Shown here piece by piece: positions 18,203 to 38,024 of a stretch of DNA of 42,851 bases. The DNA comes from an uncultured Prolixibacteraceae bacterium. GTDB lineage: Bacteria > Bacteroidota > Bacteroidia > Bacteroidales > Prolixibacteraceae. The position numbers were made by a program, and so were the translations under genes. Below the pieces are notes generated by a model. That model had not been told where the DNA came from and did no database searches. It saw nothing but the letters and a program-made list of their open reading frames with translations. How positions within the stretch are numbered: position 1 is the first letter of the stretch; each line of letters opens with the position of its first letter. The stretch lies in NCBI GenBank assembly GCA_903834475.1, contig CAILJH010000286.1, positions 1 to 42,851 on the forward strand, written 5' to 3'.

Positions 18203-19294
18203 TCACATTTCTTCCAGAACTTCCTTGATTGCAATTAATAGGTTTTCAATGTCTTGCAGATACAACTGCCCGATATTTCCTATTCTGAAACAATTCGTAT
18301 CACTTAATTTTCCCTGGTAAATCACTTGCCCGCGCTGATGCAGGCTCTCATAGAATCGTGTAAAATCGAAGTTCAGATGTTCCGGAAACAGGAATGAAGT
18401 AATGATGTATCCCTGATCTTCCTTATTGAGATAAGTGCGTAATCCCAAAGCCTCTGTTCCTTCGATCAATCTTTGGTAATTTTGCTGATATCGTTCCGAA
18501 CGTTTTAAAATTCCGCCTTCTGCCTTCAACTCATCAATTGCTTTCCGGAAGGCAAGAATTGATTGAATAGGCGGGGTAAAACGAAACTGGTTATTCTTTT
18601 TCAAGTCAATCCACTGACTGTATAAATCAAGCGATACGGTTCGGGCTTGTCCGATGCAGGTTTCAAGAGTTTTGATTTTTGCAATGACAAATGAAAATCC
18701 GGGAACTCCCTCGATGCACTTGTTTGACGATGAAACCAAAAAGTCGATACCGAGCGCTTTCATATCAATCGGAACAGCACCAAAACTACTCATGGCATCT
18801 ACAATGAAGACTTTACCGTATTTTTTGGCAAGTAATCCGATTCCTTCAATATCGTTAAAAATTCCGGTAGTCGTTTCACAATGCACAATAGCAATGTGGG
18901 TTATCGTTTCATCTTTCAGCAAAACATTTTCAGCATCTTCCACTGGAGGAACAATATTCTCCCTGTAATTTAAAGTAGTGGTCCGAATCCCATAAACTTT
19001 AGCCATCTGGCCGATCCGGTCACCATAAGCACCGTTCGTTATCAGGAGCAAATGTCCGTCAGTTGGAATTACAGTTGAAATAACCGACTCTACACCAAAA
19101 GTGCCTGAGCCTTGCATCAGAACAGAATCGTATCCATCCTCCGGAGTTAATCCGGCAATAATGAGCAGTTCGGCACGAATTTCCTTCACAATTTCCAAAA
19201 ATTCCTTGTCGCGCGAACCCATATCATGCAACATGGCTTGTTTTACTGAAAGTTTGGTATTCAGAGGACCTGGAGTAAAAAGTTTATTATCCAT
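18203..19294 (-). CDS. phnW: 2-aminoethylphosphonate--pyruvate transaminase
   Basis: 363 residues, the usual length. It transfers the amino group of 2-aminoethylphosphonate (AEP) to pyruvate, giving phosphonoacetaldehyde and alanine. LFTPGPLNTK starts the chain, as in known PhnW. HCETTTG (~138) and VDAMSSFG (D166, which would bind the pyridine nitrogen of PLP) are conserved, and K192 in SSSNKCIEGVPGF is the Schiff-base lysine. It is the last gene of the block that runs from 29551 down. The gap of 136 bases to phnX is the largest within the phnX/phnW pair and its neighbour, and holds no visible terminator. The product feeds PhnX directly. Confidence 0.95.
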   Translation of the reverse strand: MDNKLFTPGPLNTKLSVKQAMLHDMGSRDKEFLEIVKEIRAELLIIAGLTPEDGYDSVLMQGSGTFGVESVISTVIPTDGHLLLITNGAYGDRIGQMAKVYGIRTTTLNYRENIVPPVEDAENVLLKDETITHIAIVHCETTTGIFNDIEGIGLLAKKYGKVFIVDAMSSFGAVPIDMKALGIDFLVSSSNKCIEGVPGFSFVIAKIKTLETCIGQARTVSLDLYSQWIDLKKNNQFRFTPPIQSILAFRKAIDELKAEGGILKRSERYQQNYQRLIEGTEALGLRTYLNKEDQGYIITSFLFPEHLNFDFTRFYESLHQRGQVIYQGKLSDTNCFRIGNIGQLYLQDIENLLIAIKEVLEEM

Positions 19295-19430
19295 TATTGG
19301 TATATTAATTTGGTTACAAATGAAAATTCAGGCTTCGGTTCTGTTAAATTTTCAGAGTAATAGCTTTGTTGATGCGTTTTTGCTGATTCGAATTTTTATC
19401 CCATCTATTTTATAGGAAAGACTCTTCGTT

Positions 19431-20309
19431 TTAAAAGAAAAGAGGGAAATAATTAAACCCTTGTTTCCCCTTTGTGAAACTGGGTTCAATGTTCCCATCG
19501 TTTGTAGCATTTGATTGAATTTGCTCATCAATTTCCTCTAAAATCCGCCAGCAATCCCATACTCCTTCAGTAACGAAATCCGCTCCGTTATTGGTCATTT
19601 TGCGATCTGCGAGTGCTATTTTATGAGCTATCCAAACAGGATCAGCACTTTCGGCTTCAGAAAGTGATAACCCCAGTTCATTTCCTGATTTGGTCAGTCC
19701 GATGGTCCACATTCCGGCATTTATTCCTTCCTGAATGTCGGCCACAGTATCGCCAATTTTTACCATATGACTGAGTGGAAAAACATTCATTTTTTCACAG
19801 TTCCGGTAAATCATCCATGGGGCAGGCCGTCCGGCAGAAACTTCCGAAGAATTTACAACCGAATCAGGAATAAGTCCTCTGGAAGTTGCTATTGGCAATA
19901 TATTTTTCATCATTTCGGCCACATAACCAGTTGTTGTCCCGACTTTAATTCCCTGATCCTTCAAACGATTAATCAATTCGACGGCTCCCGGAATGGGTTC
20001 GCTGTAATTCTTAACAATAGCTGCCAGCGCTGGCTCCAAATCGGAGTAAATAATATCAATATCATGTTCCGAAGGAATCCGTCCATACTCAGCAACCCAT
20101 TGTTTTTGAACTGTATCAAGCCTGAAAAGCGCGCGAACATGATCTTTCTTTGCCAAACCCATTGGTGAGCGGGCTTCTTCCATACTGATGAAAATATCTT
20201 TTTGGCGAAAAACTTCAATAAACACCTGAGCTGGGGCAATGCAGCCATAGTCGATAATTGTTCCGGCCCAATCAAAAATAACTGCTTTGATATTTTTTAA
20301 TTTTTTCAT
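19431..20309 (-). CDS. phnX: Phosphonoacetaldehyde hydrolase
   Basis: 292 residues. PhnX (HAD superfamily) splits the C-P bond of phosphonoacetaldehyde into acetaldehyde and phosphate, using a lysine Schiff base and an aspartate nucleophile. AVIFDWAGTIIDYG gives nucleophile D13, and PMGLAKKDHVRAL has K54 in the place of the Schiff-base lysine of the Bacillus enzyme. GTTTGYV is HAD motif II and KIGDTVADIQEGINAGMW the metal-binding motif. It is six bases downstream of the saccharopine-dehydrogenase-like gene. The ~20-residue C-terminal extension (NATNDGNIEPS... ) looks non-conserved. The acetaldehyde must be used by enzymes outside the window. Confidence 0.95.
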   Translation of the reverse strand: MKKLKNIKAVIFDWAGTIIDYGCIAPAQVFIEVFRQKDIFISMEEARSPMGLAKKDHVRALFRLDTVQKQWVAEYGRIPSEHDIDIIYSDLEPALAAIVKNYSEPIPGAVELINRLKDQGIKVGTTTGYVAEMMKNILPIATSRGLIPDSVVNSSEVSAGRPAPWMIYRNCEKMNVFPLSHMVKIGDTVADIQEGINAGMWTIGLTKSGNELGLSLSEAESADPVWIAHKIALADRKMTNNGADFVTEGVWDCWRILEEIDEQIQSNATNDGNIEPSFTKGKQGFNYFPLFF

Positions 20310-20315
20310 GACTTT

Positions 20316-21479
20316 TTAGTTTATAAGTTCTTCTTTTGATTGGATAAAAATCTGTCTTTTGGCTAATTCTTCAAAAAAGTTCGCCGGATCGAAAACAAAC
20401 TCCGGAAAGAGAGCGCCTTCACCTTTGTATTTTCCCTGCGCAATGAGCTGAGCTGCAATTCCCATGGGGATTCCCACATTTCGGGTATATGCCCGCAAAC
20501 CGGCCCATTCAGGAATAGTACCATCTGATGCAGGATGTGTGTGTGTTAAAGTCTGTCTGATCAGTTGTCCGTTTTTAATTCCTTCCACTTCAATATGGAG
20601 TGAATAGCCAAACAGATTGGTTGTTTTTCCTTTGTCCGATTTTTGCAGATACTCACCTACAGCTTCCATAATTCCAAATTCGCAACAATTTAAAGAAATT
20701 CTGGTGTTATTCAAAAAACCATAGTTGTAAAGCGCTTTGATGAGATCCATATTTTCCTGAGGCCAGGTTCCCCGAACTTCAATTAACTCAACCCCTTTGT
20801 TTTCAAGATATTTGGCAAGGGTGAATGTTTCTGAATGAGGAATGATGTATTGAATACTTTTACCGTAAGGTTGGGGTAATTCGATTTCACGCGGACGGGC
20901 AAAAGGTGGAACCTGAATAAACTGGCCATTTTCAAAAACTGTTCTTCCAGGTAATTTGGGGTCGTACTCGTAAATGGTTGTTTCGGTAATCGATCCTGAA
21001 AATGCAATCGGGCGATAAGCTCCGTGACTGACACGAACCGAGTTGACCTTTTCCATTGAATCGCAGGCCAAAACAGCCATCATATTGGTTGTTCCGGGAG
21101 TCATTCCGAAACCTGGAACCATCACTTTTCCGTTCGATTTAAAAATTTCGCTGAATTGATATTCCTCACCAAATCCGTTCAGGTTAATCCCATGACATCC
21201 GGCATGGGCAATACATTCAGTCGAATCAGCATTCAGCGAAATGGTCGTTCCATCAATAACCAGGTCATACTCCGAAAGTATGGCAATCGACTCCATTTTG
21301 TTTTTCACATCGATAAATGCAAAATCAACCTTGGGGTGATTGAGCCAATCGGCTGTTTCTTTTGCTGCTGCGACATTGAAATCGCCAATGGTTAACCGGT
21401 CGAAAGTTCCAAACTGTACCAGATCGAGTGCAGATTCCCTGCAAATTTTTCCAGCGCCTCCAAGTGCAAAGATTTTCAT
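20316..21479 (-). CDS. Saccharopine dehydrogenase-like NAD(P)-dependent oxidoreductase in the phosphonate operon
   Basis: 387 residues. MKIFALGGAGKICRESALDL is a Rossmann cofactor loop, and VIDGTTISLNADS and VMVPGFGMTPGTTNMMAV match the saccharopine reductase family, where the APG-like segment closes the active site. The C-terminal half has a long substrate domain. Members of this superfamily reduce or oxidise imines or secondary amines (saccharopine, carboxynorspermidine). It is six bases from phnX and so co-transcribed with it. No such enzyme is part of the standard AEP route (PhnW, PhnX), so it may act on an N-substituted or condensed aminophosphonate, or recycle the amino group. This is inference; the reaction is unknown. 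Confidence 0.82.
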   Translation of the reverse strand: MKIFALGGAGKICRESALDLVQFGTFDRLTIGDFNVAAAKETADWLNHPKVDFAFIDVKNKMESIAILSEYDLVIDGTTISLNADSTECIAHAGCHGINLNGFGEEYQFSEIFKSNGKVMVPGFGMTPGTTNMMAVLACDSMEKVNSVRVSHGAYRPIAFSGSITETTIYEYDPKLPGRTVFENGQFIQVPPFARPREIELPQPYGKSIQYIIPHSETFTLAKYLENKGVELIEVRGTWPQENMDLIKALYNYGFLNNTRISLNCCEFGIMEAVGEYLQKSDKGKTTNLFGYSLHIEVEGIKNGQLIRQTLTHTHPASDGTIPEWAGLRAYTRNVGIPMGIAAQLIAQGKYKGEGALFPEFVFDPANFFEELAKRQIFIQSKEELIN

Positions 21480-21522
21480 ACTATTCCTGGATTTAAGAAA
21501 ACGTTATTGAAGTAATTAATTA

Positions 21523-21558
21523 GATAAACCCTGACAGAAAAGACTGTCAGGGTTATCA
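21523..21558 (-). terminator. Long hairpin between susD and the enzyme genes (attenuator or processing site)
   Basis: The arms AACCCTGACAG (21527-21537) and CTGTCAGGGTT (21544-21554) are fully complementary around AAAAGA, and GATA/TATC extends the stem with one bulged base. On the minus strand it lies after the SusD stop and before the dehydrogenase gene. A strong U-run does not follow, so I read it as a partial terminator or an RNA 3'-end block setting more SusCD than enzyme mRNA. Confidence 0.65.
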
Positions 21559-21582
21559 TTTGAGGAATCTAAATGTTGCTGT

Positions 21583-23070
21583 TTATTTAATAATCCACAT
21601 TTCGGAATTGATGTCATCGGTCTGTGAACCAAACTGACTGCTCAGTGCGGCATTGTAATTGTCAGCATTAGTAGTTCGTTCAGAACTTGGATATTGCCAG
21701 CGTTTGGCAATACGGGCGCTGTTGGCAGTTCCAGGTCCGGTGAGGAATGTTGGCACTCCGGTACGACGGTTATTGTAGTATGCTTCCCAACCCGAATTCT
21801 GGAAAAATGCCAGATATTTCTGAGTAAGAATTTGTGTTAGTGCTGTTGCCGGAGTACTGCTGTATTTTACTGCACCCTGAGCATAATAAGAACTCCAGTT
21901 GGCGTCAACACTTGCTCCGTGGAAAGTCCATGAAGCTTGAATTCCTTTGGTATAATAATCTTCGGCATTTCCTGAAATCCAACCTCTGTTGATTGCTTCA
22001 GCAATGTTGAAACATAGTTCGGAATAACCAATCTGAATGCAAGGTTCACCAAAGTAAGAGCTGTAGTATTTGCTTTTGCTGATTGCTGAATATTCACCGT
22101 TCAACATTTTTGTCGACATATCATCCAAACTTTCGCCTGAACTTGCACCAACATATGCATTATAGTCAGAAGCAGTCAGGCCAGCTTTGATTTTTGCCGG
22201 AGCCGGATCAGCAACGATGAAGGTCCGGGGATCTTTCAGCGATACCAAGGTATTCAGATAAGTCGCCGACATGTTGTTACGTGTGGCAGTTTGTCCGTAA
22301 TTATCCTGATTGAGCGGATATTTATCGGTAGAACTGTTGTATGTAAACTTCAGATTGTCATCCAAAGATGTCATCACCGGATATTTGGACGGATTGCTCA
22401 CCACATCAGCAAACAGCTTTTTGATGTTCAAATCTGTATCAGCTTCTTTCTTGCTTAAGGTAATCAAGACCCTCAACTTGTAGGTATTAACTACTTTTTG
22501 CCATTTTGCAAGATCGTTTCCAAGCATAAAATCACCTGTCAGCGATTTGTCCAGACCATTAATAAGCAATTGCAAATCAGCATTTGATTCATCCAGCCAA
22601 ACTAAAGCCTGTTTGAAAACTGCCTTCTGCGAATCATACTTTGGTTTGGTGTTATCAAGGCTTTTTAATGCTTCAGTTAAGGGCACATCACCCAGACGCA
22701 TACTCATATCAACATAGAAATAGGCCTTCAGGAACTTTCCTAAAGCTGAATACGGATTGTTTGCAGGAAGTCCAACCCGTTTAGCTTCGGCATTCATCTG
22801 GTTCACGTTTTTCAACTGAGTGAAGTCGAAACTGGTTGTAGTCCAGTCGTATTGCTGATCGTTGTAATAGGCATAGTTACTGCACCAAAACTGATTCCAT
22901 CGTTGTTCGTCGCTCCAGGGCGAATTATATACGCTATACAAAACGTTCGTAAAAACCAGCGAAGGCGGAACTTCGCCAGGCCGATTCGGATCTTTTTCCA
23001 GCTCTGAGAATTTTTGGCAAGATGATAGCGCAACCGCGAATACCATCATAAGTATGATTATTTTTTTCAT
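21583..23070 (-). CDS. SusD/RagB-like outer-membrane lipoprotein
   Basis: About 495 residues from the ATG at 23070 (the frame opens at 23100, but MKKIIILMMVFAVALSSC starts a normal lipoprotein signal with the lipobox ALSSC). The rest is helical and matches the SusD-like group: FSELEKDPNRPGEVPPSLVFTNVLY after the lipobox, then NAYVGASSGESLDDMS and the C-terminal PSSERTTNADNYNAALSSQ. SusD proteins sit over the SusC barrel and capture substrate. The gene is three bases from the SusC stop at 23104 and downstream of it. Its binding specificity is not known, but the operon enzymes point to a phosphonate rather than a plain glycan. Confidence 0.9.
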   Translation of the reverse strand: MKKIIILMMVFAVALSSCQKFSELEKDPNRPGEVPPSLVFTNVLYSVYNSPWSDEQRWNQFWCSNYAYYNDQQYDWTTTSFDFTQLKNVNQMNAEAKRVGLPANNPYSALGKFLKAYFYVDMSMRLGDVPLTEALKSLDNTKPKYDSQKAVFKQALVWLDESNADLQLLINGLDKSLTGDFMLGNDLAKWQKVVNTYKLRVLITLSKKEADTDLNIKKLFADVVSNPSKYPVMTSLDDNLKFTYNSSTDKYPLNQDNYGQTATRNNMSATYLNTLVSLKDPRTFIVADPAPAKIKAGLTASDYNAYVGASSGESLDDMSTKMLNGEYSAISKSKYYSSYFGEPCIQIGYSELCFNIAEAINRGWISGNAEDYYTKGIQASWTFHGASVDANWSSYYAQGAVKYSSTPATALTQILTQKYLAFFQNSGWEAYYNNRRTGVPTFLTGPGTANSARIAKRWQYPSSERTTNADNYNAALSSQFGSQTDDINSEMWIIK

Positions 23071-23103
23071 CTTTTTCTGATTGAATGTTATTAATGACAT
23101 GGA

Positions 23104-26100
23104 TTAGAAAGAAATATTCAGGTTAAAACCATACCGACGGGTCGTTGGGGTTTGAAGCCCTGAAGATCCACTGTTTCCAGCATATTGCTCGATATCAATA
23201 TCGGTTCTTGCAGCAAAATACAACAGGTTTCTGCCGACAAACGAAATGTTGGCTTGTCTGATAAACGAATGGTTCAGGTATTTCTGCGGCAGGTTATAAG
23301 TCAAAACTACTTCGCGTAATTTCACAAACGACCGGCTGATGCGATCTGCTACATCAGTTCCGTAGTAACGGCTGATATAATCCTGAAGGTAAGTTGGGGT
23401 GGTATTGGTTGCAAATTGCAGTTTATCGTAATTGGTAACCTGTCCGTCAGAATTGTATGCAATTGGAACATTGTTGCTCACTACTACACCATCACCCACA
23501 TACGATTTAATTCCTTTGGTATCGTTTAAACGGGCAATGCCCATAGCTCCCAAAATGGTATTAATGTGTCTTCCACCCTGATATGTTTTCTTTTCAACAT
23601 AGTCAAGAATAGTTCCTCCAAATCGTCCGTCGAATTGAAATTTCAAGCTGACATTCTTGTAGGTCAGTGTGTTGTTGATTGCACCCGCCCAATCGGAATT
23701 CGTATTTCCGAGGAATTGGGCCACCGAGTTCCGGATCGGACGACCACTTGCATCGTTGATAATCTTGCCATCAGCGGTGTGAACAAAGTCGGAACCATAC
23801 ATTTTATCCATACGGTCACCAACTTTTAAATAGATGTTCAGGTTCTCAACTCCCGGATAAATTTCATTCAGGTATTGCTGATTCGTTGAATAATTGGCCG
23901 AAACATTCCAGCTGAAACCATTTTCTTTCCGGATTGGAGTGGCTGAAGCAGAAAGTTCTATCCCTTTTCGCTGAACTTTAATCCCATTAACCAATGCAGA
24001 ATTAAAACCTGTGGCACCCGAAATTGGAAGCGAGAATATCTGTGGTCCGTCAATGCTCGAGAAATAAGTCGCATCCAATAAAACCTTATTTTCAAACAGT
24101 CCAACGTCAGTCCCAACTTCCCAGGCTGAGCTGGAACTTGGCTTCAGGTTAGGATTTGAAATCGTGTTGGTATAGGATGCGGCCGGAATTCCCTGGATGA
24201 GGTTGATGTTGTATGACGATGAATTCTGGAAGGTTGGTCCGTCATAAGGAGAATTATAGCTTGCGCCATATCCGACAACACTGTAACCCAGCACCTGGTA
24301 TGTTGGTCCAATCGTCTTTGAAGTTAGTGCGCTACCCACGTTGGCATAAGAACCTCTGACTTTCCATGACTTTACATTTGGAATAGTAACCAGTTTTGAC
24401 AATTCAATACTGGTAGAAACCGACGGATAAAAATAAGAATTGTTGGCTGAAGGTAATGTGGAGTTCTTATCGCTACGTCCGGTTAATGACAAAGTCGCAA
24501 AATCGTCGTAAGTTAAGTCAGCAGTTGCATATGCACTCAACACCTGCATAGGCGCATAGTAGTCATACGATTTCACCGGATTCTTAGAGTTACTTAGATT
24601 GTACCAACCAGGAACATTCATGTAATCGGTAGTTGCGTAACTGCTTCTGAAGCTGTAGCTGCGAATGTTTCCACCGGCAGTTGCATGTAAGCTAAGTTTT
24701 GGAACCACATAACGATCGTACGATAGGAGGGCATCCGTATTGTTTTCGAACAAATTACGTTTGTCTTCACGGTAATCGCCTTCGCCTGCTTCACGACCAT
24801 ATGGATGGGCTGAAAAAGGCATCTTTTCTGAACGAAACATATCATACGATGTGACCGCTGTACGGAGTTGTAAATTCAGATAATTATTGAATTTGTAGTT
24901 TAACGAAGCATAGCCGTTCAGGTCGTTTTTTTCGTGACCCCGTAACCATTCGTACGACATGAAATAAGGGTTGTGGTAGCGCTGGTATTCCGCAAAAATC
25001 GATTGAACACCTTCTTTTCCAGGCTGCCAGTAATTACGCATGTCGTCAATATTCCAGTCGGCACCACCCCAGGTAGTAATGTTATAAATGATACTGTTCG
25101 GGCCATAATTTACGTCTGGAACATTTGGCGTAAATTGTCTGCTTGAGGATATGTTTGCATCAATGCGAAGCTTTTTCGAAATATTGTATCCGCCTGAAAG
25201 GTTAAAATTGGTCATGTTCAGCGAAGTATTTGGAACGATACCGTTTTGGTAACTGTACGAAGCTGAAAACCGAAGATCGTATTTTTCACCACTGGCTGAA
25301 ACGGCTAAGCTGTTCGTCGAAAGCAAGCCTGTTTCAAGGAACCTCTTCAGGTTATCTTTTCCGCGGGCAACCCAGGGAGTTCCGGTACGTGCTCCTGTTA
25401 CCGGATCTATCGGGCTGTCGTATTGCGGGATAAGCTGACCACTGAAACGTGGACCCCAAATATCGTAGTCGCCATCGTTCAAACCACCACCTTTACCATC
25501 AACAAAAGCGTATTGTCCGTGGTCGCCAGGACCATATTCGTCCTGCACTTTAGGAATCGCCAAAAACCCTTTTTCGGCCATAGTACTTGAATTGAATTCA
25601 ACAGAAAAACCGCGCACGTCTTTTGTGCCGCGTTTTGAAGTGATCTGTATAGCACCATATTGACCACGCGAACCATATAAGGCAGCTGCTGCAGGGCCTT
25701 TCAGTACAGTATAACTTTCAATATCATCAGGGTTGATGTTCCAGGTGTCGGTCTGAACCGGCACTCCGTCAACCACATATAATGGTGAGTAGCCACGAAG
25801 CAGAACTGTTGGTGCACCAAGCAATTCAGAAGAAGCTCCTACGGTCAGACCCGAAACTTTACCGGTTAGTGCATTGATTGCGTTGGGTTCCCTGGCCTTA
25901 ACCAGTTCACTGCCTTTTACATCCTGAACTGCAAAACCGATGGTACTTTTTTCCTTTTCGATCCCAAGGGCCGTAACAATAACTTCCCGGATTTCCTGCT
26001 TGGCATCTTCCAAAGTAATCTGAATCACTTTTTGGTTGCCAACAACAAGTTCAACTGTTTCGAAACCAACGTATGACACTACCAGAATGTCTTTTGGTTC

Positions 26101-26328
26101 AGCCTGAATAACATAGTGACCTTTTGCATCGGTCACAACACCATTGGTCGTTCCTTTTACCAAAATGGTTGCACTTGGAAGGCTTTCACCGGAATTGGCT
26201 CTTACCGTGCCTTCAATATTTGCCTTTTGGGCAAACACTGTTGCTCCTATCAGGAGAAACGTAATCATTAAAAAGATAAATTTTTGCATTTTAAAATGGT
26301 TAGAATTAATACTGTACTTTTTAGTCAT
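23104..26328 (-). CDS. SusC/RagA-like TonB-dependent outer-membrane transporter
   Basis: 1074 residues. After the signal (MQKFIFLMITFLLIGATVFAQ; this inner ATG at 26289 is an alternative start) comes a carboxypeptidase-regulatory-like domain (NIEGTVRANSGESLPSATILVKG), a plug domain with VDGVPVQTDTWNINPDDIES and VLKGPAAAALYGSRGQYGAI, and a barrel ending in RRYGFNLNISF. The segment EVIVTALGIEKE is typical of the TonB-box/plug region. It would import large or charged ligands with TonB energy. No inner-membrane phosphonate transporter is found nearby. The pair with SusD and the position directly ahead of phosphonate enzymes suggest it imports a phosphonate-bearing molecule (inference). Confidence 0.92.
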   Translation of the reverse strand: MTKKYSINSNHFKMQKFIFLMITFLLIGATVFAQKANIEGTVRANSGESLPSATILVKGTTNGVVTDAKGHYVIQAEPKDILVVSYVGFETVELVVGNQKVIQITLEDAKQEIREVIVTALGIEKEKSTIGFAVQDVKGSELVKAREPNAINALTGKVSGLTVGASSELLGAPTVLLRGYSPLYVVDGVPVQTDTWNINPDDIESYTVLKGPAAAALYGSRGQYGAIQITSKRGTKDVRGFSVEFNSSTMAEKGFLAIPKVQDEYGPGDHGQYAFVDGKGGGLNDGDYDIWGPRFSGQLIPQYDSPIDPVTGARTGTPWVARGKDNLKRFLETGLLSTNSLAVSASGEKYDLRFSASYSYQNGIVPNTSLNMTNFNLSGGYNISKKLRIDANISSSRQFTPNVPDVNYGPNSIIYNITTWGGADWNIDDMRNYWQPGKEGVQSIFAEYQRYHNPYFMSYEWLRGHEKNDLNGYASLNYKFNNYLNLQLRTAVTSYDMFRSEKMPFSAHPYGREAGEGDYREDKRNLFENNTDALLSYDRYVVPKLSLHATAGGNIRSYSFRSSYATTDYMNVPGWYNLSNSKNPVKSYDYYAPMQVLSAYATADLTYDDFATLSLTGRSDKNSTLPSANNSYFYPSVSTSIELSKLVTIPNVKSWKVRGSYANVGSALTSKTIGPTYQVLGYSVVGYGASYNSPYDGPTFQNSSSYNINLIQGIPAASYTNTISNPNLKPSSSSAWEVGTDVGLFENKVLLDATYFSSIDGPQIFSLPISGATGFNSALVNGIKVQRKGIELSASATPIRKENGFSWNVSANYSTNQQYLNEIYPGVENLNIYLKVGDRMDKMYGSDFVHTADGKIINDASGRPIRNSVAQFLGNTNSDWAGAINNTLTYKNVSLKFQFDGRFGGTILDYVEKKTYQGGRHINTILGAMGIARLNDTKGIKSYVGDGVVVSNNVPIAYNSDGQVTNYDKLQFATNTTPTYLQDYISRYYGTDVADRISRSFVKLREVVLTYNLPQKYLNHSFIRQANISFVGRNLLYFAARTDIDIEQYAGNSGSSGLQTPTTRRYGFNLNISF

Positions 26329-26405
26329 AGAAATGGCTGATCAAAGCTTTTTGTGCTTTAAATACCAGTAAAATCAAGAATTAAAATATTGTGGAACAGG
26401 GCTGA

Positions 26406-26945
26406 TTAAAACACCAGTATCACCCTTTTTGTGAAGAGATTGGTCAGCGAATTAATGTCTTTTGATTTTGAAATGGCTTTTTCAAAACTTTCGGTATCAA
26501 CAGTCAGAACATTAAACGCAACATCCAAAACTTTATTAAAATCAACTTCAGCCACTTCTAAAGAAACGTCTCCTTTCTTAACCGATTTTTTAAGGTGGTG
26601 TTCGATTTTTTGAACCGCATCATAAATTACCGGTTTCCGGATTACCGTTTTTGTTTGCGGATTTCCAGGAACGATTGGCACCTGGTAAGTATATTTTGCT
26701 TCAAGCAAATATATTTTTTTCGCAACCAGATCGCCGAATGCATGTTCACCGGCCATTTCCTTTGTAACCGAATTTAGTGCAAGTTCATTGTCAGAAGCCC
26801 TGAATTCAAAAGCCGGGCTGCTTGTGACATTTGACGCTGGTTTCCTTGAATCTTCGGGAAACGCTAATACCAGAGCATCCTGGGCAAATAATTTTCCTAC
26901 ACACAGTAAGAAAATGAACGCTATTAATTGTAAACTTTTTTTCAT
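26406..26945 (-). CDS. Small secreted protein of unknown function, in the phosphonate block
   Basis: 179 residues with a clear signal peptide (MKKSLQLIAFIFLLCVGKLFAQ). The mature part (~157 residues) contains ASNVTSSPAFEFRASDNELALN, an IVPGNPQTKTVIRKPVIYDAV segment and a lysine-rich, charged middle (KIEHHLKKSVKKGD), then ends in KRVILVF. No lipobox and no membrane helix are present. I recognise no family. It is on the same strand, between the PbfA-like gene and susC, with 77 bases to the susC start. It may be a surface or periplasmic accessory for the substrate, for example a binding protein, but nothing in the sequence proves this. Confidence 0.75.
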   Translation of the reverse strand: MKKSLQLIAFIFLLCVGKLFAQDALVLAFPEDSRKPASNVTSSPAFEFRASDNELALNSVTKEMAGEHAFGDLVAKKIYLLEAKYTYQVPIVPGNPQTKTVIRKPVIYDAVQKIEHHLKKSVKKGDVSLEVAEVDFNKVLDVAFNVLTVDTESFEKAISKSKDINSLTNLFTKRVILVF

Positions 26946-27098
26946 GTGGCAATGGTTCTTAATTTATTACAAAATTCTCATTTCAACATTACAGGATGAT
27001 TGAAGAAAAATTAATCTTCGAATAAGAATTGTGTTTTTTTATGACTTTTTATTAAAATTTTGTTTCTGGACTTTATTGCGGTATCTTTAATTTTAGTC

Positions 27099-28442
27099 CT
27101 ACTTCTGAAATGCAGAGGACAATATGGATATTGCAGCCAGTAAATCTTCACGGCTAATAGTTAATGCCGGCGAAAGCTGAATCACATTTCCCTGAGAAAC
27201 CTTAAAACTCAAACCACGCTTCATACATTGATACATGATTTGCTCGGCTTCAGCATTTGCTTTTTCTTTTGTTTCCCGATTTTTAACCAACTCAAGACCC
27301 CACAAAAGTCCTATACCACGAACATCTCCGATAATAGGAAATTGCTCTTTAAGCTTATTTAATTCATTTTTCATCCAGACACCATCTTCAACAACCTTTT
27401 GTAAAAGGCTTTCCCTTTCAATATAATTTATAGTTGCTAAAGCAGCCGTGCTGCCCAACGGACTTTTTTCGTGGGTGTAATGCCCCAGCGAAATATCTCC
27501 GGCCACATTATAGCTATCGCGCGCAATCATTGCTGCGAAAGGAATAATTCCACCGCCCAATCCTTTTCCAAGACAAAGGATATCAGGTTCTATCCCGAAA
27601 TTTTCGAATGCAAACATTTTTCCGGTGCGGCCAAAAGCAATTGGAATCTCGTCGAGAATTAGCAGAACATTGTGCTTTGTGCAAATTTCGCGTACCCGTT
27701 TCCAGTATGCCTGAGTTGGAATCTGTACATCGGTATTGCGCACGGTTTCTACCAGGAATGCACCAACATCACCTTCTTTTTCAATTACATATTCCAAATA
27801 TTCTGCATAATTTAACTGATCGTCCTCTGTATCACCAAAAACTCCAAAGTAAGTCGTAGGAGGCGGGATACAAATCGTTCCAGGCATCATTGGTCCCAAA
27901 TGCCTTTTAAATATCTCTTCTCCTCCTGCTGAAATTGCATCAAGTGAAGCGCCATGGAACGAATCCCAAAGGGAGACGATTTTGTGTTTCCCGGTAACCA
28001 CGCGAGCCAGCTTAATTGCCATGCCGATTGCAGATGTTCCTCCCGGTGCAAAAAGACTTCGGTTAAGGTCGCCCGGTAAAAGGCTGGCCAGTTTCTTCGC
28101 CAGATTAACTGCCGGTTGGTTGGTATATCTGCGGGGCGAAAACGATAAGCGGTTCATTTGTTCTGTAAGCTGGTTGATCACATAGTCGTTTCCGTAGCCC
28201 AGCTGGTGAACATTGTTTCCGTGGAAATCGAGCAAATGTTTTCCTGAAAGTGTGGTCATTCCACTGCCATCGCATCGATCAAGAACATCAAGGCAAGGAC
28301 TCGACATAGCCTGATGCAGGAAATAGCGCGAATCATCCTCCAGAATCTGCAGGGTTTGAGGATCGGTAATTTCCTGATTCCACTTCCGGCGTTCTTCTGA
28401 TACATTCACATCACCTTCAGTAACTAATTTGCTGGTATCCAT
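27099..28442 (-). CDS. pbfA: PbfA-like (R)-1-hydroxy-2-aminoethylphosphonate ammonia-lyase, class III aminotransferase fold
   Basis: 447 residues of the PLP fold-type I, class III aminotransferase family. The start TEGDVNVSEERRKWNQEI and YFLHQAMSSPCLDVL (~40-55) are like those of the phosphonate-linked group that includes PbfA. PLP contacts: GGTSAIG (~134), D264 in LILDEIP and the Schiff-base K293 in LGKGLGGGI. PbfA converts (R)-1-hydroxy-AEP into phosphonoacetaldehyde and ammonia, without an amino acceptor, so it widens the PhnW/PhnX route to hydroxylated AEP. Its presence with phnW and phnX supports the assignment. A true transaminase of another amine remains possible, as the family is diverse. 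Confidence 0.75.
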   Translation of the reverse strand: MDTSKLVTEGDVNVSEERRKWNQEITDPQTLQILEDDSRYFLHQAMSSPCLDVLDRCDGSGMTTLSGKHLLDFHGNNVHQLGYGNDYVINQLTEQMNRLSFSPRRYTNQPAVNLAKKLASLLPGDLNRSLFAPGGTSAIGMAIKLARVVTGKHKIVSLWDSFHGASLDAISAGGEEIFKRHLGPMMPGTICIPPPTTYFGVFGDTEDDQLNYAEYLEYVIEKEGDVGAFLVETVRNTDVQIPTQAYWKRVREICTKHNVLLILDEIPIAFGRTGKMFAFENFGIEPDILCLGKGLGGGIIPFAAMIARDSYNVAGDISLGHYTHEKSPLGSTAALATINYIERESLLQKVVEDGVWMKNELNKLKEQFPIIGDVRGIGLLWGLELVKNRETKEKANAEAEQIMYQCMKRGLSFKVSQGNVIQLSPALTISREDLLAAISILSSAFQK

Positions 28443-28459
28443 AGTTTTATTATTAGAAT

Positions 28460-28507
28460 AAATCGATTTTGAGGATCGATTTCGGAAAAATCGATTTAAG
28501 CGATTTT
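28460..28507 (-). promoter_or_regulatory. Iterated ATCGATTT motifs upstream of the PbfA-like gene
   Basis: ATCGATTT occurs at 28462-28469, 28475-28482 and 28490-28497, and a partial copy (GCGATTTT) at 28500. AAATCGAT (28460) and ATCGATTT (28475) also form an inverted repeat. The set lies 18-65 bases upstream of the start at 28442. Spacing of about 13-15 bases is close to but not one helical turn. It could be a regulator-binding array or a hairpin leader. Confidence 0.45.
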
Positions 28508-28540
28508 AAGTATTATTTCTGTATTTCCGCAATAGAAAGC

Positions 28541-29551
28541 TTAAAATAATGAGCTTGTATGCTTCAAAACTTCTCCGTTATCAACAACCGGACTGGGATT
28601 GGGATTGGTATTTCTTTGTTTCCAGTTGTAATGAACAAGCTGTGAATTGTAAGTGCCATCATCAAAAAGATCGATTATGGCATACATGGGTGGAAATTCC
28701 TGATATTTACCAAACCACCATGCTCCGCAGGCAGCTCCATTGCACAGGTAGTCGATGCCCAGGTAACTGGTTTTGTCCGCCAGATGAACATGTCCGCTGA
28801 TCGCCAGTTTGATGTTCGGATAATCTGAAAATAGGTTTTTTATTTTTCGAGCATCAACGTGCATCCAGGCTCCAGGAATGTTCCAGCTATCATTTTTATC
28901 GTTGTTTCCATCAAAGAATACCGCAGTTGAAATGATCGGTATGTGGGAAACGACACAAACAGGTGTTCCTGTTCCGGTCTGTTTCAAATCTTCTTCAAGC
29001 CATTCAAATTGTTCTTTGTCGAGTTTTGCTATATATGACTGGTGGTCGTCACTGCGATGAGAACTGTCGAGAAAAATGAAATGCCAGCCATTTTTGTCCA
29101 TACTGTAATAACGGTTTGGCATTCCCAGTTCTTTAACAGCCCAGTTTTTCCCGAAGAGCGGATCATTTTCAAGCTGCTTATCATTCATGCCCCAACCCCA
29201 AACATCGTGGTTACCAATACAACTGTAAAGTTCATAATTCAGTTTCGAACGGTAATATTCCTGCCATGAGTTCCATTGGGCTGCAGTATCTTCCTTGCTT
29301 CGTTTCAGCGATTCCATGATGTTGTCGCCGGAATTGATCACAAAGTCGGGTTTTTCATCCAACGCATGAATCTCTTCAAGCAGATTTCGGATGCCTCTTT
29401 CGGGAACCGGACCAGGATGAATATGCATGTCGGTCAGGTGAACAAAACGAAGTGAACGGGTGCTTGTTTTCTTTTCATTTGCCTGAAGGTTCAAGGTGCT
29501 GGCACCCATAATTCCAACTAATGATGTGGTTAGAAAATTTCGTCGTTTCAT
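28541..29551 (-). CDS. Tat-exported calcineurin-like metallophosphoesterase at the head of the phosphonate block
   Basis: 336 residues. MKRRNFLTTSLVGIMGAST is a twin-arginine signal. The metal-site motifs are complete: LTDMHIHPG (D-x-H), NSGDNIM (GD), IGNHDVWG (GNHD), VVSHIPI and AISGHVHLAD (GHxH). The fold suits phosphomonoesters or diesters. It lies 98 bases upstream of the PbfA-like gene on the same strand, so it may be the first gene of the block, though the motif array in that gap may mark a second promoter. If it belongs to the operon it could cleave a phosphonate ester in the periplasm before the enzyme steps (inference). Confidence 0.85.
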   Translation of the reverse strand: MKRRNFLTTSLVGIMGASTLNLQANEKKTSTRSLRFVHLTDMHIHPGPVPERGIRNLLEEIHALDEKPDFVINSGDNIMESLKRSKEDTAAQWNSWQEYYRSKLNYELYSCIGNHDVWGWGMNDKQLENDPLFGKNWAVKELGMPNRYYSMDKNGWHFIFLDSSHRSDDHQSYIAKLDKEQFEWLEEDLKQTGTGTPVCVVSHIPIISTAVFFDGNNDKNDSWNIPGAWMHVDARKIKNLFSDYPNIKLAISGHVHLADKTSYLGIDYLCNGAACGAWWFGKYQEFPPMYAIIDLFDDGTYNSQLVHYNWKQRNTNPNPSPVVDNGEVLKHTSSLF

Positions 29552-29890
29552 TGCGGAGAGGTTTGGTTTAATGAATTTTTCGTTGTGGATTAATCAGAAA
29601 TGACAAATACTTTGAATAGATATTGCTGCTTGAATTTTACTCATTCATAAACTAATCAAACTTATGTAAGCGGAAAGAAATGCACGTTAGGAGAGTGTTA
29701 CCAATAACTGGAATTTAGGTTATTAAATGACTAAACAATGATTACAGTAGATTGCAGTTTGGTTAATGCATGAAATCAAACTGCAATATATAAATCTGTC
29801 TTATCTTAAATTAGAATTATATTCAGGCGTAATAAGTTGATTTTTAATTTTTTATATCTAACTTTAGCTCAAATTTTAATACCTGAAAAA
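29552..29890. promoter_or_regulatory. Divergent promoter region of the metallophosphoesterase and the lysine-rich protein
   Basis: The region is 339 bases of AT-rich DNA without a gene. Rightward, TTG (29837-29839) and TAACTTTA (29859-29866) are 19 bases apart, near the Bacteroidota pattern TTG/TAnnTTTG, and place transcription start just before the ATG at 29891. Leftward, the minus strand has TAAGTTTG (29657-29664), an exact TAnnTTTG match, about 105 bases before the metallophosphoesterase start, but no clear -33 box. Confidence 0.45.
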
Positions 29891-30433
29891 ATGGAAGATT
29901 TAAACAAGAATGCAGAACCAGAAAAGGCGATTGAGAAACAAAATGATTTGAAAAAAGAGACTACTGAAAGCATTGTGTTAAATGCACCAAAAGTGGTAGC
30001 GAAAAGAATCCGGGTGAGGACAAAACCCAAGCCAGCAGCCGCAATTGTAACTGAAAGTATTCCGGTTGCTGCAGTTAAAATTAGTACACCTGTTGTTGAA
30101 ACGCCTAAAGCTGAAAAACAAACCAGCAAAAAAGTAAAAAAATCGGAAGAAAAAGTTATTGTCAAGAAATCTCCAAAAAAGAAAAAAACTGAAACAGAAC
30201 CGGCTGTTAATGCAGAGGCTGCGGTGGATTTGACTGTAGAAAATGAAAAAACTGATACTGTAAAAGTTATTAAAAAGGAAGCAAAAAAGGCTGAGAAAAA
30301 GGTTGACAAGCTGACGAAGAAAGTCAAAAAAGCGAAGAAGAAAGATGAAAAAAAGGAATTGAAAAAGAAATTAGAAAAAGCCATTAAAAAGCGTAAAATC
30401 AGTTTCAAGGACCTTAAAAAAGCCAAGGAATAA
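29891..30433 (+). CDS. Lysine/alanine-rich basic protein, histone H1-like
   Basis: About 180 residues from the ATG at 29891. The open frame extends upstream to a TTG at 29837, but the candidate promoter there makes 29891 the better start. The N-terminal part is mixed (MEDLNKNAEPEKAIEKQ), the middle has alanine/proline/valine spacers (TKPKPAAAIVTESIPVAAV), and the C-terminal half is runs of lysine with alanine and glutamate (KKAEKKVDKLTKKVKKAKKKD). The tail resembles lysine-rich, histone H1-like DNA-binding proteins such as chlamydial HctA or bacterial AlgP-type tails. It has no signal. Nucleic acid binding is likely from charge; the homologue class is not certain. Confidence 0.75.
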   Translation: MEDLNKNAEPEKAIEKQNDLKKETTESIVLNAPKVVAKRIRVRTKPKPAAAIVTESIPVAAVKISTPVVETPKAEKQTSKKVKKSEEKVIVKKSPKKKKTETEPAVNAEAAVDLTVENEKTDTVKVIKKEAKKAEKKVDKLTKKVKKAKKKDEKKELKKKLEKAIKKRKISFKDLKKAKE

Positions 30434-30573: not shown

Positions 30574-31755
30574 CTAAAAGTGAATCGATGTTTTAGCACC
30601 CCAGACAATCGGCGTTTCAGGCTTTGATGGATTAGTATTCCACAAACACTGGCGAACGGTCATTAATTTGGTTACCGGATCCAAAGTAATGAGAAGAAAA
30701 GACATCTTCGTCTGATCCAAACTCGAAACCGCTCCTTTCATAGGTGAGTCTACCTCAATCGTTTTCAAGGTCGCATCCTGATCAGGACCTTTATATTCGT
30801 AGAAACGGCTTTCATGGGCATTCCCGTGGAAATAGACTTTTATATTTGGATGCGACTTCAGGAAGGTAACAAATTCACGTTGCTCAATTACGCTGGTATC
30901 TGCAACTGTTGAGCCATCCTTAAAAACATCGCTGAGCAAGTTTTCAAATTTGTCGGTCGTATTAATTTTATGAATACCGTTAGGATTACTAAAATGCTTC
31001 GATTCGACATTCGGTTCGTCGTGGGCAAATAATACCACCGGAGTCGATGCCTGAACCAGTTTTAAATCATTTTCCATCCAGTCCCTTTCTTTGGAGTCGG
31101 GCCAAATATTTACGAAAACGAAATGCACCCCGGCCACATTCTTTGAATAATGGATTTTATCGGTTGCGTAATTGTAGGTAGCCGAAGTTTTTTGACTTTC
31201 AGGAAACATGTAATTGTAAATCCCAAGCAAAGAACTATTGTCAGTAGGAATGCCGACGATTTTATAATGGCCGATTGCATTAGAAACATCATGGTTGCCG
31301 GGGAGCAGCCACAGTTCTGTTTTTTGATTCTTTCGGTTTATGGTGGTTAATCCATTGATATAAGTGGTCGTAAATTGCTCCCAGGATTTTGCGGCACTTT
31401 GAATACCAGGTTCGGAACGATTGGCAATATCACCGGTATTGATCAGGTAATCGATTTCGCCGACTGGCAATCCTGCGCATGCCCCACTGTCAATTGGTAA
31501 AGTCAGATTAGGCAAGGTGTTCATTTTATTCACCATAGCCTCGTTCACGGCAAAGGCTGTAACATTTGAATCGCCTCGAAAAGCACTTCGGGAGTATCCA
31601 AAATGTGAATCGGAGGTGAAGACAATCTGAACGGGATGATTCCGGTTAAAACTATCGCAACCAATTACAAAAAACAGGAATATCAGGAATATCGCCGTTT
31701 GTGATGTCCGGATTTTTATTTTTCGGATTCCTCTTTTGTGTATATTATACCTCAT
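30574..31755 (-). CDS. Lipoprotein metallophosphoesterase with altered metal motif
   Basis: 393 residues. After an N-terminal basic stretch (NIHKRGIRKIKIR) there is a membrane signal with lipobox FFVIGC. The calcineurin-like motifs are VFTSDSHFGYS (D-x-H), NTGDIANRS (GD), LLPGNHDVSN (GNHD) and FAHDEPN. The last motif, normally GHxH, reads GNAH here (VYFHGNAHESRF), so one of the two metal-binding histidines may be lost or shifted. Activity is therefore less certain than for its neighbours. The start overlaps the stop of the upstream metallophosphoesterase (ATGA), so the two are translated together. It is the last gene of the TonB operon. Confidence 0.82.
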   Translation of the reverse strand: MRYNIHKRGIRKIKIRTSQTAIFLIFLFFVIGCDSFNRNHPVQIVFTSDSHFGYSRSAFRGDSNVTAFAVNEAMVNKMNTLPNLTLPIDSGACAGLPVGEIDYLINTGDIANRSEPGIQSAAKSWEQFTTTYINGLTTINRKNQKTELWLLPGNHDVSNAIGHYKIVGIPTDNSSLLGIYNYMFPESQKTSATYNYATDKIHYSKNVAGVHFVFVNIWPDSKERDWMENDLKLVQASTPVVLFAHDEPNVESKHFSNPNGIHKINTTDKFENLLSDVFKDGSTVADTSVIEQREFVTFLKSHPNIKVYFHGNAHESRFYEYKGPDQDATLKTIEVDSPMKGAVSSLDQTKMSFLLITLDPVTKLMTVRQCLWNTNPSKPETPIVWGAKTSIHF

Positions 31756-32729
31756 AGCGTGATATTATATGGACGCTTATAGCTGTAAATAATATTTCCG
31801 CTGGTACCTACAAAGCTAACTCTAATGCTGTCAGCCTTTAGAGAAACAACGGAAAACGCAGGGTCAGATTGGCTAAATACTGACATTTCATTGGTGCTGC
31901 AAGGACGGGTTTCTCCTCCGGTGCCGGTAACAATATAATCAAGCTTTTTCCCTTTTTCATGCAAATGTTGCAAGTCATGATCGTGGCCGCAAAAGTAAAA
32001 TTGAGCATTGTATTTTTCGAGCAATGGTTTTACTTTTTGAATCATTTCCAAGGTGCTTCCGTGTTTCTTGCTGGCAGAATAAATCGGATGATGTCCGAAA
32101 ACAAGAATGCATTGTTCCTTAGAACTTGCCAGGACATCTTTCAACCATTTTATCTCTTTGGCGGTATCCTGTTTCACGACATCAGGATATCCTTCTTTTT
32201 TCCAGTATTCATTGACCAGCGGAGGAGTATCGAGAAAGATAAAACGCGCAGAAACTGATTCGCTTACCTTTCTGACAAAGGTGTAATAACGATCGGTCAA
32301 TCGCCAGCGACGGCTAATATTTGTATAATCAATTTCAGCCTGGGAATTGCCTTTGTAATCATGGTTTCCAAGAACCGGGAACCACTCTACCTGAAGAGAA
32401 TTCGATTTATACACATTTTCAAAATTGGCCATCCACAGCGGATCCTGAGTGGAAGCAACACCGCTCATCTGGAAATTATCGCCGCAACTCACCACAAATT
32501 TTGCATTGATGCTATCGGCTGTTTTTCCCATCTGATCGGCAACTTTAAGTTGAGAGCCATAACTATTCCAACCCCAGTCGCTAACAATCAGAAAGTTAAA
32601 GGCCTTTTCAAATGTTTTGGAAGTAACTACTTCCACTGGTTTTATTACCGGGGGTTTTGGAACTGGTGTACATGACGCTAAAAGGATTACCGACATGAGT
32701 AAACCTGAATTAATAATATTCATTTTCAT
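31752..32729 (-). CDS. Purple-acid-phosphatase-like lipoprotein phosphatase (ACP5/TRAP type)
   Basis: 325 residues with the lipobox VILLASC. The motifs resemble purple acid phosphatases of the small, ACP5-like group: VSDWGWN, SCGDNFQMSGV, VLGNHDYKGN, VFGHHPIYS and FCGHDHDLQHL. In this family the enzyme holds two metal ions and releases phosphate from organic phosphomonoesters. It has close paralogues at 38492 and at the right window edge, which share the C-terminal motif (CSTNEMSVFSQSDPAFSVVS against CATNELSLFSKSASAFSAVT at 42711). It is between the YncE-like gene and the second metallophosphoesterase. A surface phosphatase feeding the TonB receptor is likely. Confidence 0.88.
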   Translation of the reverse strand: MKMNIINSGLLMSVILLASCTPVPKPPVIKPVEVVTSKTFEKAFNFLIVSDWGWNSYGSQLKVADQMGKTADSINAKFVVSCGDNFQMSGVASTQDPLWMANFENVYKSNSLQVEWFPVLGNHDYKGNSQAEIDYTNISRRWRLTDRYYTFVRKVSESVSARFIFLDTPPLVNEYWKKEGYPDVVKQDTAKEIKWLKDVLASSKEQCILVFGHHPIYSASKKHGSTLEMIQKVKPLLEKYNAQFYFCGHDHDLQHLHEKGKKLDYIVTGTGGETRPCSTNEMSVFSQSDPAFSVVSLKADSIRVSFVGTSGNIIYSYKRPYNITL

Positions 32730-32776
32730 TAGATCTGTTTTATTTTATTGGAAATTGGTGAATCGAGTTAAAGAAG

Positions 32777-32820
32777 AAACACCCATGGCTGAAGCTTGTG
32801 TTTCAAGACCATGGGTGTTT
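32777..32820 (-). terminator. Hairpin terminator after the YncE-like gene
   Basis: AAACACCCATGG (32777-32788) and CCATGGGTGTTT (32809-32820) pair over 12 bases with a 20-base loop. It lies between the YncE-like stop at 32852 and the next start at 32729, so it may lower expression of the phosphatases. The minus-strand U-run is short. Confidence 0.65.
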
Positions 32821-32851
32821 TATCTATATTCTCCGGACTATTTGGCTGGAT

Positions 32852-33865
32852 TTAAAGAGGCGCAATATCAATTACTACAAATGTACCAGGAATTAACTTG
32901 GACTTGGCGGTACCGGTTTGAGCTTCAAAATCGGCAGAGGTCGCGTAAATGTGATGAGTTTGTTTATTCAGTGTAATCGTTTTTGCTCCTTTTTGAGTCT
33001 TGATGGTTTCAGAAACGACAAATGAGTCTTTGCTGACTTCTTTCACAACCGTAACGGTACCTTCACCATTCGAAGTATATACACATTTGAGGGCTGGGTC
33101 GAAAGCTGCACCATCACATTTTTCGCCAATAGGCAAAGTTGTGATCACTTTTCCGGTTTCAGAATCCAGTACAATCAGGAGTTTATTGGCACAAGCGCTG
33201 AATAAGCGGTGTGTTTCATTATCGAGGGCCAAACCTGTAGGTTCTGTTCCTGGAGCAATCGGCCACACTTTTTCAACTTTGTACGAGGTCGCATTGATAA
33301 CTGCAACACTGCTGGCACTTTCCAGATTCACATAAATCTTCCCTTTTCCATCCGTCGCTGCTGCTTCAGGATTTCCGGTAAGATCAATGGTTGCAACGAT
33401 TTCATTGGTCTCAGCATTCATGACCGATACATTATTGGAATGTCCATTGAATACAAAAACCTTTTTACTGAACGAATCAAAAAGAATCGCATCGGGACTT
33501 TTACCTGTTACCTCGATCTTTTTAGTGACTGCAAATGTTTTCGTATCGAAGATTGTAACCAAATTATCATTTTTAGTCGTGATGAACCCTTTATTCAGAG
33601 CCGGAGCGATGGCAATTCCATGAACACCATCAAGACCTGTTATTTTTCCGACAACCTTTCCATTCGACTGATCAACAACCTGAACCATAGTTCCATGTGA
33701 TACATATACTCGGCTTGAAGTGTCGTCCGAAAACAGATAATCCCATTTTTCGTCACCCTCAAGTTTGAATTTGTTTGCAATTTTATATCCTTCTTTGGCA
33801 ATATTTTGTGAATAAACAAACCCAGCGGTCAACAAAAGGATTAATACTACGGTAATTTTTTTCAT
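32852..33865 (-). CDS. Secreted YncE-like (YVTN repeat) beta-propeller protein
   Basis: 337 residues with a signal peptide (KITVVLILLLTAGFVYSQ). The rest is a series of about 40-residue repeats with the pattern of YVTN/YncE propellers: VVDQSNGKVVGKITGLDGVHGIAIAP, IFDTKTFAVTKKIEVTG, VMNAETNEIVATIDL, VLDSETGKVITTLPIGEKC. These seven-bladed proteins bind ligands or other proteins in the periplasm; no enzymatic residues can be identified. It follows the beta-helix lipoprotein after 24 bases and is in the TonB operon. It may hold or present a substrate of the receptor, but the ligand is unknown. Confidence 0.85.
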   Translation of the reverse strand: MKKITVVLILLLTAGFVYSQNIAKEGYKIANKFKLEGDEKWDYLFSDDTSSRVYVSHGTMVQVVDQSNGKVVGKITGLDGVHGIAIAPALNKGFITTKNDNLVTIFDTKTFAVTKKIEVTGKSPDAILFDSFSKKVFVFNGHSNNVSVMNAETNEIVATIDLTGNPEAAATDGKGKIYVNLESASSVAVINATSYKVEKVWPIAPGTEPTGLALDNETHRLFSACANKLLIVLDSETGKVITTLPIGEKCDGAAFDPALKCVYTSNGEGTVTVVKEVSKDSFVVSETIKTQKGAKTITLNKQTHHIYATSADFEAQTGTAKSKLIPGTFVVIDIAPL

Positions 33866-33889
33866 GAGTGTCTTGTATAAAAATTTAAA

Positions 33890-35167: not shown

Positions 35168-35193
35168 ACTCGTAAAAATTAATTGATAAATGG

Positions 35194-37881: not shown

Positions 37882-38024
37882 ATGGATTTATATAAAGTAA
37901 AATACATGATTTTGCTGTTCGGCAGCTGAACATCTGTTGTATTTAATTCGAAAAACTGGGAATAAAAACACAAGATGTCCCAAGACGATGAGTCAAATCA
38001 GAGTACAATGTTAGGTTCAATCCC

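Follow-up and report, generated by a model that had tools for sequence, protein, structure and literature searches.

A probable phosphonate utilisation locus of the SusCD kind in an uncultured Prolixibacteraceae bacterium

Organisation of the locus

Natural organic phosphorus is known to include phosphonates, and in an uncultured Prolixibacteraceae bacterium the genes for their breakdown stand beside those of an outer-membrane SusCD pair. They lie in a stretch of 42,851 nucleotides (nt), the window (GenBank assembly GCA_903834475.1, contig CAILJH010000286.1), which belongs to a genome that is 66% complete. Its minus strand carries eight open reading frames (ORFs) at 18203-29551, all intact and free of internal stops. 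An original prediction, made from the DNA letters alone, had named these eight genes as a phosphonate block with SusCD, and both names and coordinates hold: PhnW, PhnX, PbfA and SusC all score above curated cut-offs (Table 1).

Table 1. Features of the eight-gene run, in order of transcription
Feature	Coordinates	Strand	Basis
MPE1, secreted calcineurin-like metallophosphoesterase with RR-type signal sequence, first in the run	28541..29551	-	PF00149, 54 bits; signal read from sequence
PbfA	27099..28442	-	NF049939, 710.5 bits (cut-off 525)
Secreted 179-amino-acid protein, unnamed family, mostly helical	26406..26945	-	No Pfam or NCBIfam match at E 0.001
SusC/RagA TonB-dependent outer-membrane transporter	23104..26328	-	TIGR04056, 490 bits (cut-off 368)
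SusD-like surface lipoprotein (SusD-like_2), Cys28 in a lipobox-like stretch	21583..23100	-	PF12771, 222 bits, above cut-off
Saccharopine-dehydrogenase-like nicotinamide adenine dinucleotide (phosphate) (NAD(P)) enzyme, candidate ancillary aminophosphonate enzyme	20316..21479	-	PF16653, 53 bits; PF03435, 43 bits
PhnX, phosphonoacetaldehyde hydrolase	19431..20309	-	TIGR01422, 318 bits (cut-off 220)
PhnW, 2-aminoethylphosphonate-pyruvate transaminase	18203..19294	-	NF010006, 466 bits (cut-off 296); TIGR02326, 450 bits (cut-off 400.8)

Transcription runs from the metallophosphoesterase through PbfA, the 179-amino-acid protein, SusC, SusD, the dehydrogenase-like enzyme and PhnX to PhnW, across gaps of 98, 153, 77, 3, 103, 6 and 136 nt, and the nearest same-strand gene upstream is 1022 nt away; the eight genes are likely a single transcript. 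In scans for promoters and terminators, fewer sites were found than the shuffled mean, and the scans are not relied on: six terminator-like sites on the minus strand all fall inside genes, the scan overall being at chance level, and the sole match to a Bacteroidota-type promoter pattern, at 39187, lies within another gene. A search of the window against Rfam gave no family over threshold.

PhnW and the lyase PbfA both yield phosphonoacetaldehyde, which PhnX turns into acetaldehyde and phosphate. With phnW, phnX and pbfA together, the window holds the enzymes of the hydrolytic 2-aminoethylphosphonate pathway, and the SusC/RagA transporter and SusD lipoprotein, 3 nt apart, form a SusCD pair. The eight genes do not amount to a polysaccharide utilisation locus (a SusCD pair with carbohydrate-active enzymes), as they include no glycosidase; a GH1 glycosidase gene follows 232 nt downstream of phnW. 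Published PhnW-PhnX clusters, as outlined in the relevant passage of PMC12366243, typically include transporter and regulator genes. Unlike them, the window's cluster has the outer-membrane SusCD pair as its only transporter, and no regulator was recognised in it.

Linkage within the family

The family was surveyed in 140 genomes. SusD relatives at 76-85% identity occur in 18 genomes besides that of the window, the next matches lying at 39% or below. In 16 of the 19 genomes with SusD at 76% or more, phnW or phnX adjoins SusCD on the same contig, and in 13 of these 16 pbfA is on that contig as well. Seen from the enzymes, PhnX is present in 16 of the 140 genomes, all 16 of which carry SusD at 76% or more; among its 17 places, 15 adjoin SusCD, one is cut by a contig end and one is without SusCD. 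PbfA, searched at E 1e-100, was found at 24 places in 22 genomes. With the window counted, 15 of these cluster with SusC, SusD or both from this clade, two have a SusCD pair of another clade (L035, L042), three have no recognised SusCD (L031, L046, L047) and four stand at contig ends (L041, L043, L048, L050). Gene order is shuffled among the relatives, while the block of small protein, SusC and SusD is kept together. At the 14 family loci with SusD at 34-39% identity, phosphonate genes are found in none.

Locus L031 is the second phosphonate cluster of the closest relative (G021:C344). It encodes PbfA, PhnX and a short piece of PhnW, followed by a protein that reads from its sequence as sodium-solute-symporter-like.

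Linkage across Bacteroidota

For a wider view, an alignment of eleven close SusD sequences was searched against one genome per species, and the best 80 of the 117 relatives, some shared with the family search, were taken as the related loci. Among their sources are Prolixibacteraceae members, Spirosoma, Fibrisoma, Dyadobacter, Terrimonas, Flavihumibacter, Aquirufa and Mucilaginibacter, four of which represent the NCBI orders Marinilabiliales, Cytophagales, Chitinophagales and Sphingobacteriales. ORFs were labelled by their best blastp match above 60 bits to reference proteins. The phosphonate labels were PhnW, PhnX, PbfA, PhnX-like hydrolase (TIGR03351 type), Phn-HD oxygenase (TIGR03276 type), TIGR03364-type flavin adenine dinucleotide (FAD) oxidoreductase and HpnZ-type dehydrogenase. 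When the references were checked against NCBIfam, some fell under the cut-off of their best model (Phn-HD, 191 against 214.6 bits; PhnX-like, 179 and 185 against 218.9 bits), and the labels derived from them are family resemblances, not certified functions.

At least one phosphonate gene is present in 56 of the 80 related loci (19/23 at SusD identities of at least 70%, 11/15 at 53-70% and 26/42 below 53%). Stricter labelling, with the FAD oxidoreductase and dehydrogenase removed, leaves 54 of 80; when loci with at least nine ORFs are taken separately, the count is 47 of 65. The phylum was also sampled evenly, in 392 genomes including that of the window, some of which may be among the 80 loci too. 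SusD relatives at E 1e-80 were found in 19 genomes besides the window's, 14 of them with phosphonate genes nearby (14/16 at 43% identity or more, 0/3 at 36-40%); stricter labels return the same 14.

Control stretches around other SusD-like_2 genes hold phosphonate genes in none of 40 cases. The controls were hand-picked in eight genomes with the pair, out of nine in which 95 SusD-like_2 places are listed. Those of a Dyadobacter genome (20) and the pair itself (8) were left out, and the 40 stretches, a few of which hold two places, were taken from the 67 that remained. Fisher's test of 56/80 against 0/40 gives p 2e-15, to be read as a rough guide since the loci are related. A chance neighbourhood of SusCD and phosphonate genes is made unlikely by these controls, by the 0/14 among distant family loci and by the phylum sample. 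The recurrence across species to which the original prediction had looked for support was thus found in the family, the genome scan and the phylum sample, and its link between SusCD uptake and phosphonates is supported.

One SusD clade and two catabolic toolkits

A quick tree of 134 SusD sequences separates 81 clade rows from 53 outgroup rows with a Shimodaira-Hasegawa-like approximate likelihood ratio test (SH-aLRT) value of 99; the outgroup branches are long and their own placement is unsure. With seven short loci set as unknown, the label for absence of phosphonate genes changes 12 times on this tree, against a shuffled mean of 44.9. Residues whose conservation is specific to the clade include Arg274, Tyr76, Tyr79, Trp168 and Asn276. 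Two sets of catabolic genes accompany the clade. The first (PhnW, PhnX or PbfA) is found at 22 of the 80 loci and the second (Phn-HD and/or FAD oxidoreductase) at 35, 26 of them with the PhnX-like hydrolase; the two occur together only at L146. That a single SusD clade goes with two largely different toolkits points to substrate class or function as what its members share. The window's pair belongs to a clade that is linked again and again to phosphonate catabolism, and a role in phosphonate import is well founded.

The phosphate utilisation systems of Flavobacterium (PusCD, PUSI-PUSIV; PMC8115612), in which SusCD pairs stand with phosphomono- and diesterases, are a direct precedent for the general idea. 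The window and its relatives resemble them in placing SusCD beside phosphoesterases or phosphonate enzymes. In PMC8115612, however, PusCD are defined by expression under low phosphate. The passage of that paper describing PUSI and PUSII gives them phosphodiesterases or PhoA and mentions neither phnWX nor pbfA; PusD is reported there to be polyphyletic. Beyond this precedent, the present analysis defines a SusD clade whose linkage was set against controls and spans several orders, and it describes the two toolkits, the permeases and the dehydrogenase.

The literature found on outer-membrane phosphonate uptake in Bacteroidota amounts to little beyond one sentence, in PMC8115612, on the Flavobacterium PusCD clusters. 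In open-licence PubMed Central, nothing was found that joins SusD with phosphonate and phosphonatase, which is not a claim of absence from print; among the matches listed there, none places SusD in the phosphonate or phnX literature and none mentions phosphonolipid in that on TonB or Bacteroidota.

Inner-membrane permeases

The original prediction also held that the locus lacks a small-molecule transporter. This is true of the window's cluster; the clusters of some relatives, however, hold a GlpT-like permease of the major facilitator superfamily (MFS) or a DUF5690 protein. SusCD therefore need not replace an inner-membrane transporter and would act at the other membrane. The GlpT-like permease, at 77% identity or more, is present in 10 of the 140 family genomes and adjoins phnW in all ten (an in-frame stop appears in the search match of one of them); three further matches in the family lie at 36-37%. 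It matches GlpT (1pw4) at E 3e-42. Of the 80 related loci, 31 carry the DUF5690 label and nine that of the GlpT-like permease; neither appears in any of the 40 controls.

DUF5690 is predicted to be an MFS-like transporter. Its structure model (mean pLDDT 88.7) resembles MFS transporters, including G6PT1, sialin and GlpT, with TM-scores of about 0.57-0.67. A sequence homology between DUF5690 and the GlpT-like permease was rejected (hhalign, 3.5% probability over 57 columns), and the DUF5690 profile gave no match to PDB chains at E 1; the MFS assignment therefore comes from the predicted fold only. In the window's genome a DUF5690 gene is found on another contig, with no labelled phosphonate genes around it.

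The AepXVW, AepP and AepSTU transporters (PMC8316502) similarly tie aminoethylphosphonate uptake to breakdown. They differ from the present case in that the permeases recognised in the relatives are GlpT-like or DUF5690 (no profile search for Aep transporters was made) and that SusCD serves the outer membrane.

Phosphoesterases and the size of the ligand

Counted with one label set throughout, phosphoesterases are found at 44 of the 80 related loci and in 5 of the 40 controls. They favour the loci with phosphonate genes (38/56, against 6/24 of the unlinked loci). MPE1 itself is found at 3 of the 23 loci with SusD at 70% identity or more, and has no relative among PDB sequences at E 0.01. The trimming role that the original prediction gave to the periplasmic esterase agrees with this enrichment, which fits an esterified substrate; its tie to phosphonates in particular is looser, as set out below.

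SusCD pairs usually take large ligands, and a phosphonolipid or phosphonoglycan would be plausible here. It is quite possible, though short of an even bet, that the pair imports a macromolecule or amphiphile bearing a phosphonate (a deacylated phosphonolipid or a phosphonoglycan fragment, for instance), which a periplasmic esterase trims before catabolism. The recurrence of several phosphoesterase families, with the excess over controls just given, agrees with such a ligand, as does the resemblance of four distant loci (L089-L091, L093) to phosphodiester loci; 36 of the 80 loci, however, lack every phosphoesterase type tested.

It is equally possible that SusCD imports free small aminophosphonates, given that Bacteroidota draw on TonB-dependent transporters for scarce nutrients, even small ones. 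Free aminophosphonates are the substrates of the cytoplasmic enzymes, the permeases in the relatives' clusters are related to carriers of small organophosphates, and 18 of the 56 phosphonate-linked loci are without a tested phosphoesterase. Against this stands the preference of phosphoesterases for phosphonate-linked over unlinked loci.

The four distant loci (L089, L090, L091 and L093; SusD at 35-37%) encode MPE1 and a PHP phosphodiesterase at 54-55% identity, lack phosphonate genes and look like counterparts for phosphodiesters.

Proposed route and its weighing

The window's genes are best read as a SusCD-type locus for phosphonate utilisation, with a probability of about 0.8. At the cell surface SusD would capture an aminophosphonate, whether free, a small ester or a conjugate, and SusC would move it through the outer membrane, as their families and the linkage suggest. 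In the periplasm MPE1 may release the aminophosphonate from an ester-linked partner, a task that PHP-type, NPP-like or beta-propeller phosphoesterases may take over in relatives. A permease, GlpT-like MFS or MFS-like DUF5690 to judge from the relatives' clusters, would carry it across the inner membrane. In the cytoplasm, by the established reactions of their families, PhnW would convert 2-aminoethylphosphonate, and PbfA (R)-1-hydroxy-2-aminoethylphosphonate, to phosphonoacetaldehyde, which PhnX would cleave into acetaldehyde and phosphate. The inner-membrane permeases and phosphoesterases of the relatives are what one would expect if aminophosphonates, free or esterified, are taken up.

Several observations weigh against this reading. 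Within the family, SusCD is an orphan in 3 of the 19 genomes with close SusD (G010, G041, G026), and the second PhnX copy of G021 (G021:C344) has no SusCD. Among the 80 related loci, 24 have no phosphonate gene, some of them on short contigs, and seven Dyadobacter loci have none despite at least nine ORFs of context. In the phylum sample, the PhnX loci outside the family are all without this SusCD (3/3); the phosphonate pathway therefore does not need it. Seven of the 14 distant SusCD loci, all of which lack phosphonate genes, also encode phosphoesterases, so these enzymes are not specific to phosphonates. As to the inner membrane, the window's cluster has neither the GlpT-like permease nor DUF5690, and the former was not found in the window's genome, which is incomplete as stated above.

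Some of these exceptions would suit a pair that imports an unrelated glycan or peptide and has phosphonate neighbours by chance or shared descent, which is very improbable. Besides the seven Dyadobacter relatives and three orphan pairs, the breadth of the Pfam family to which SusD belongs and the GH1 glycosidase after phnW speak for it. However, phosphonate genes accompany the pair at 14 of 19 loci in the phylum sample and 56 of 80 in the genome scan, against 0/40 and 0/14 in the controls; two different toolkits and a shuffled gene order are involved; and, among the labelled loci, GH1 is found outside the window only in the closest relative, G021 (L044 and L101 being one contig).

In the seven Dyadobacter loci (L139, L140, L142, L144, L145, L148 and L150) SusCD is kept without phosphonate genes in a conserved setting, next to a cupredoxin-domain protein and a 3-keto-disaccharide-hydrolase-domain protein.

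If the SusD clade predicts phosphonate uptake, phosphonate use becomes readable from genomes and metagenomes, and with a recognisable clade the question of free versus ester-bound environmental phosphonate becomes directly testable in cultured strains of Spirosoma, Terrimonas or Aquirufa. The locus also supplies candidates for an inner-membrane step (DUF5690), a new ancillary enzyme and a small secreted neighbour of SusC.

The saccharopine-dehydrogenase-like enzyme

The NAD(P) enzyme encoded between SusD and PhnX has both saccharopine dehydrogenase domains and reaches no curated equivalog (NF043000, 20.9 bits against 800). Its sequence relatives in the PDB are 4ina, 4rl6 and 8deb (E 3e-13 to 2e-7). 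The gene is present in 9 of the 140 family genomes, in all nine of which it adjoins a phosphonate gene on at least one contig, and in eight, the window's counted, it lies within a pbfA or phnX cluster. In G037 it stands between PhnW and a regulator, near DUF5690 and a PhnX-like hydrolase, in a stretch without PbfA; G093 has an extra fragment on a short contig without a phosphonate gene. It was not found at E 1e-40 in the 391 other genomes of the phylum sample. Among the 80 related loci the dehydrogenase is encoded at five and labelled FAD oxidoreductases at 30, never both together, a weak sign that amine oxidation may follow an alternative step here.

PMC10590968 and PMC12366243 describe the ancillary phosphonate enzymes PbfA-PbfD and PbfF. 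PbfF, according to the passage on it in PMC12366243, is a 2-amino-1-hydroxyethylphosphonate racemase related to D-lactate dehydrogenase and restricted to some Alphaproteobacteria. Like the window's enzyme it is of the NAD type, and its gene adjoins pbfA in phosphonate clusters, but the latter belongs to the saccharopine dehydrogenase family. Identity with PbfF was rejected, as the enzyme has saccharopine dehydrogenase domains only and PbfF is of the D-2-hydroxyacid-dehydrogenase type. No literature joining saccharopine dehydrogenase to phosphonates was found among the matches listed in open-licence PubMed Central, and absence from print is not claimed.

Most likely, though the case is weak, the enzyme would channel a further amino- or N-substituted phosphonate into the PhnX route. 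A broader proposal, on balance unlikely, is that in at least four Bacteroidota orders one SusCD clade is dedicated to importing ester-linked aminophosphonates (phosphonolipid head groups, phosphonoglycan parts), served by interchangeable secreted phosphoesterases, two alternative toolkits for C-P cleavage and either a GlpT-like or a DUF5690 MFS permease, and that the saccharopine-dehydrogenase-like enzyme represents an unrecognised class of aminophosphonate dehydrogenase supplying PhnX with phosphonoacetaldehyde.

The secreted 179-amino-acid protein

The family of the small protein adjoins SusC at 21 of 21 places among the 80 related loci and at 5 of 5 among the 14 distant loci. An alignment of 23 relatives shows an invariant Pro-Gly pair. 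Against Pfam and NCBIfam nothing rose above cut-off even at E 5, and the structure model (mean pLDDT 84) matched no PDB fold at E 0.001; because neither family nor fold was matched, the protein is assigned no function.

Neighbouring genes

Upstream of the eight genes, the same strand encodes at 30574-39457 three metallophosphoesterases, a YncE-like beta-propeller, a TonB-dependent receptor and a secreted protein of 425 amino acids without a Pfam match; together they are possibly a second phosphorus-scavenging run. Next to it, on the plus strand at 39706-42677, lie genes for a response regulator and a histidine kinase. Between the two runs, a lysine-rich ORF without family assignment lies on the plus strand at 29837-30433. 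At two of the related loci (L113, L122), a weakly similar set of receptor, 425-amino-acid protein and phosphoesterase adjoins the phosphonate SusCD.

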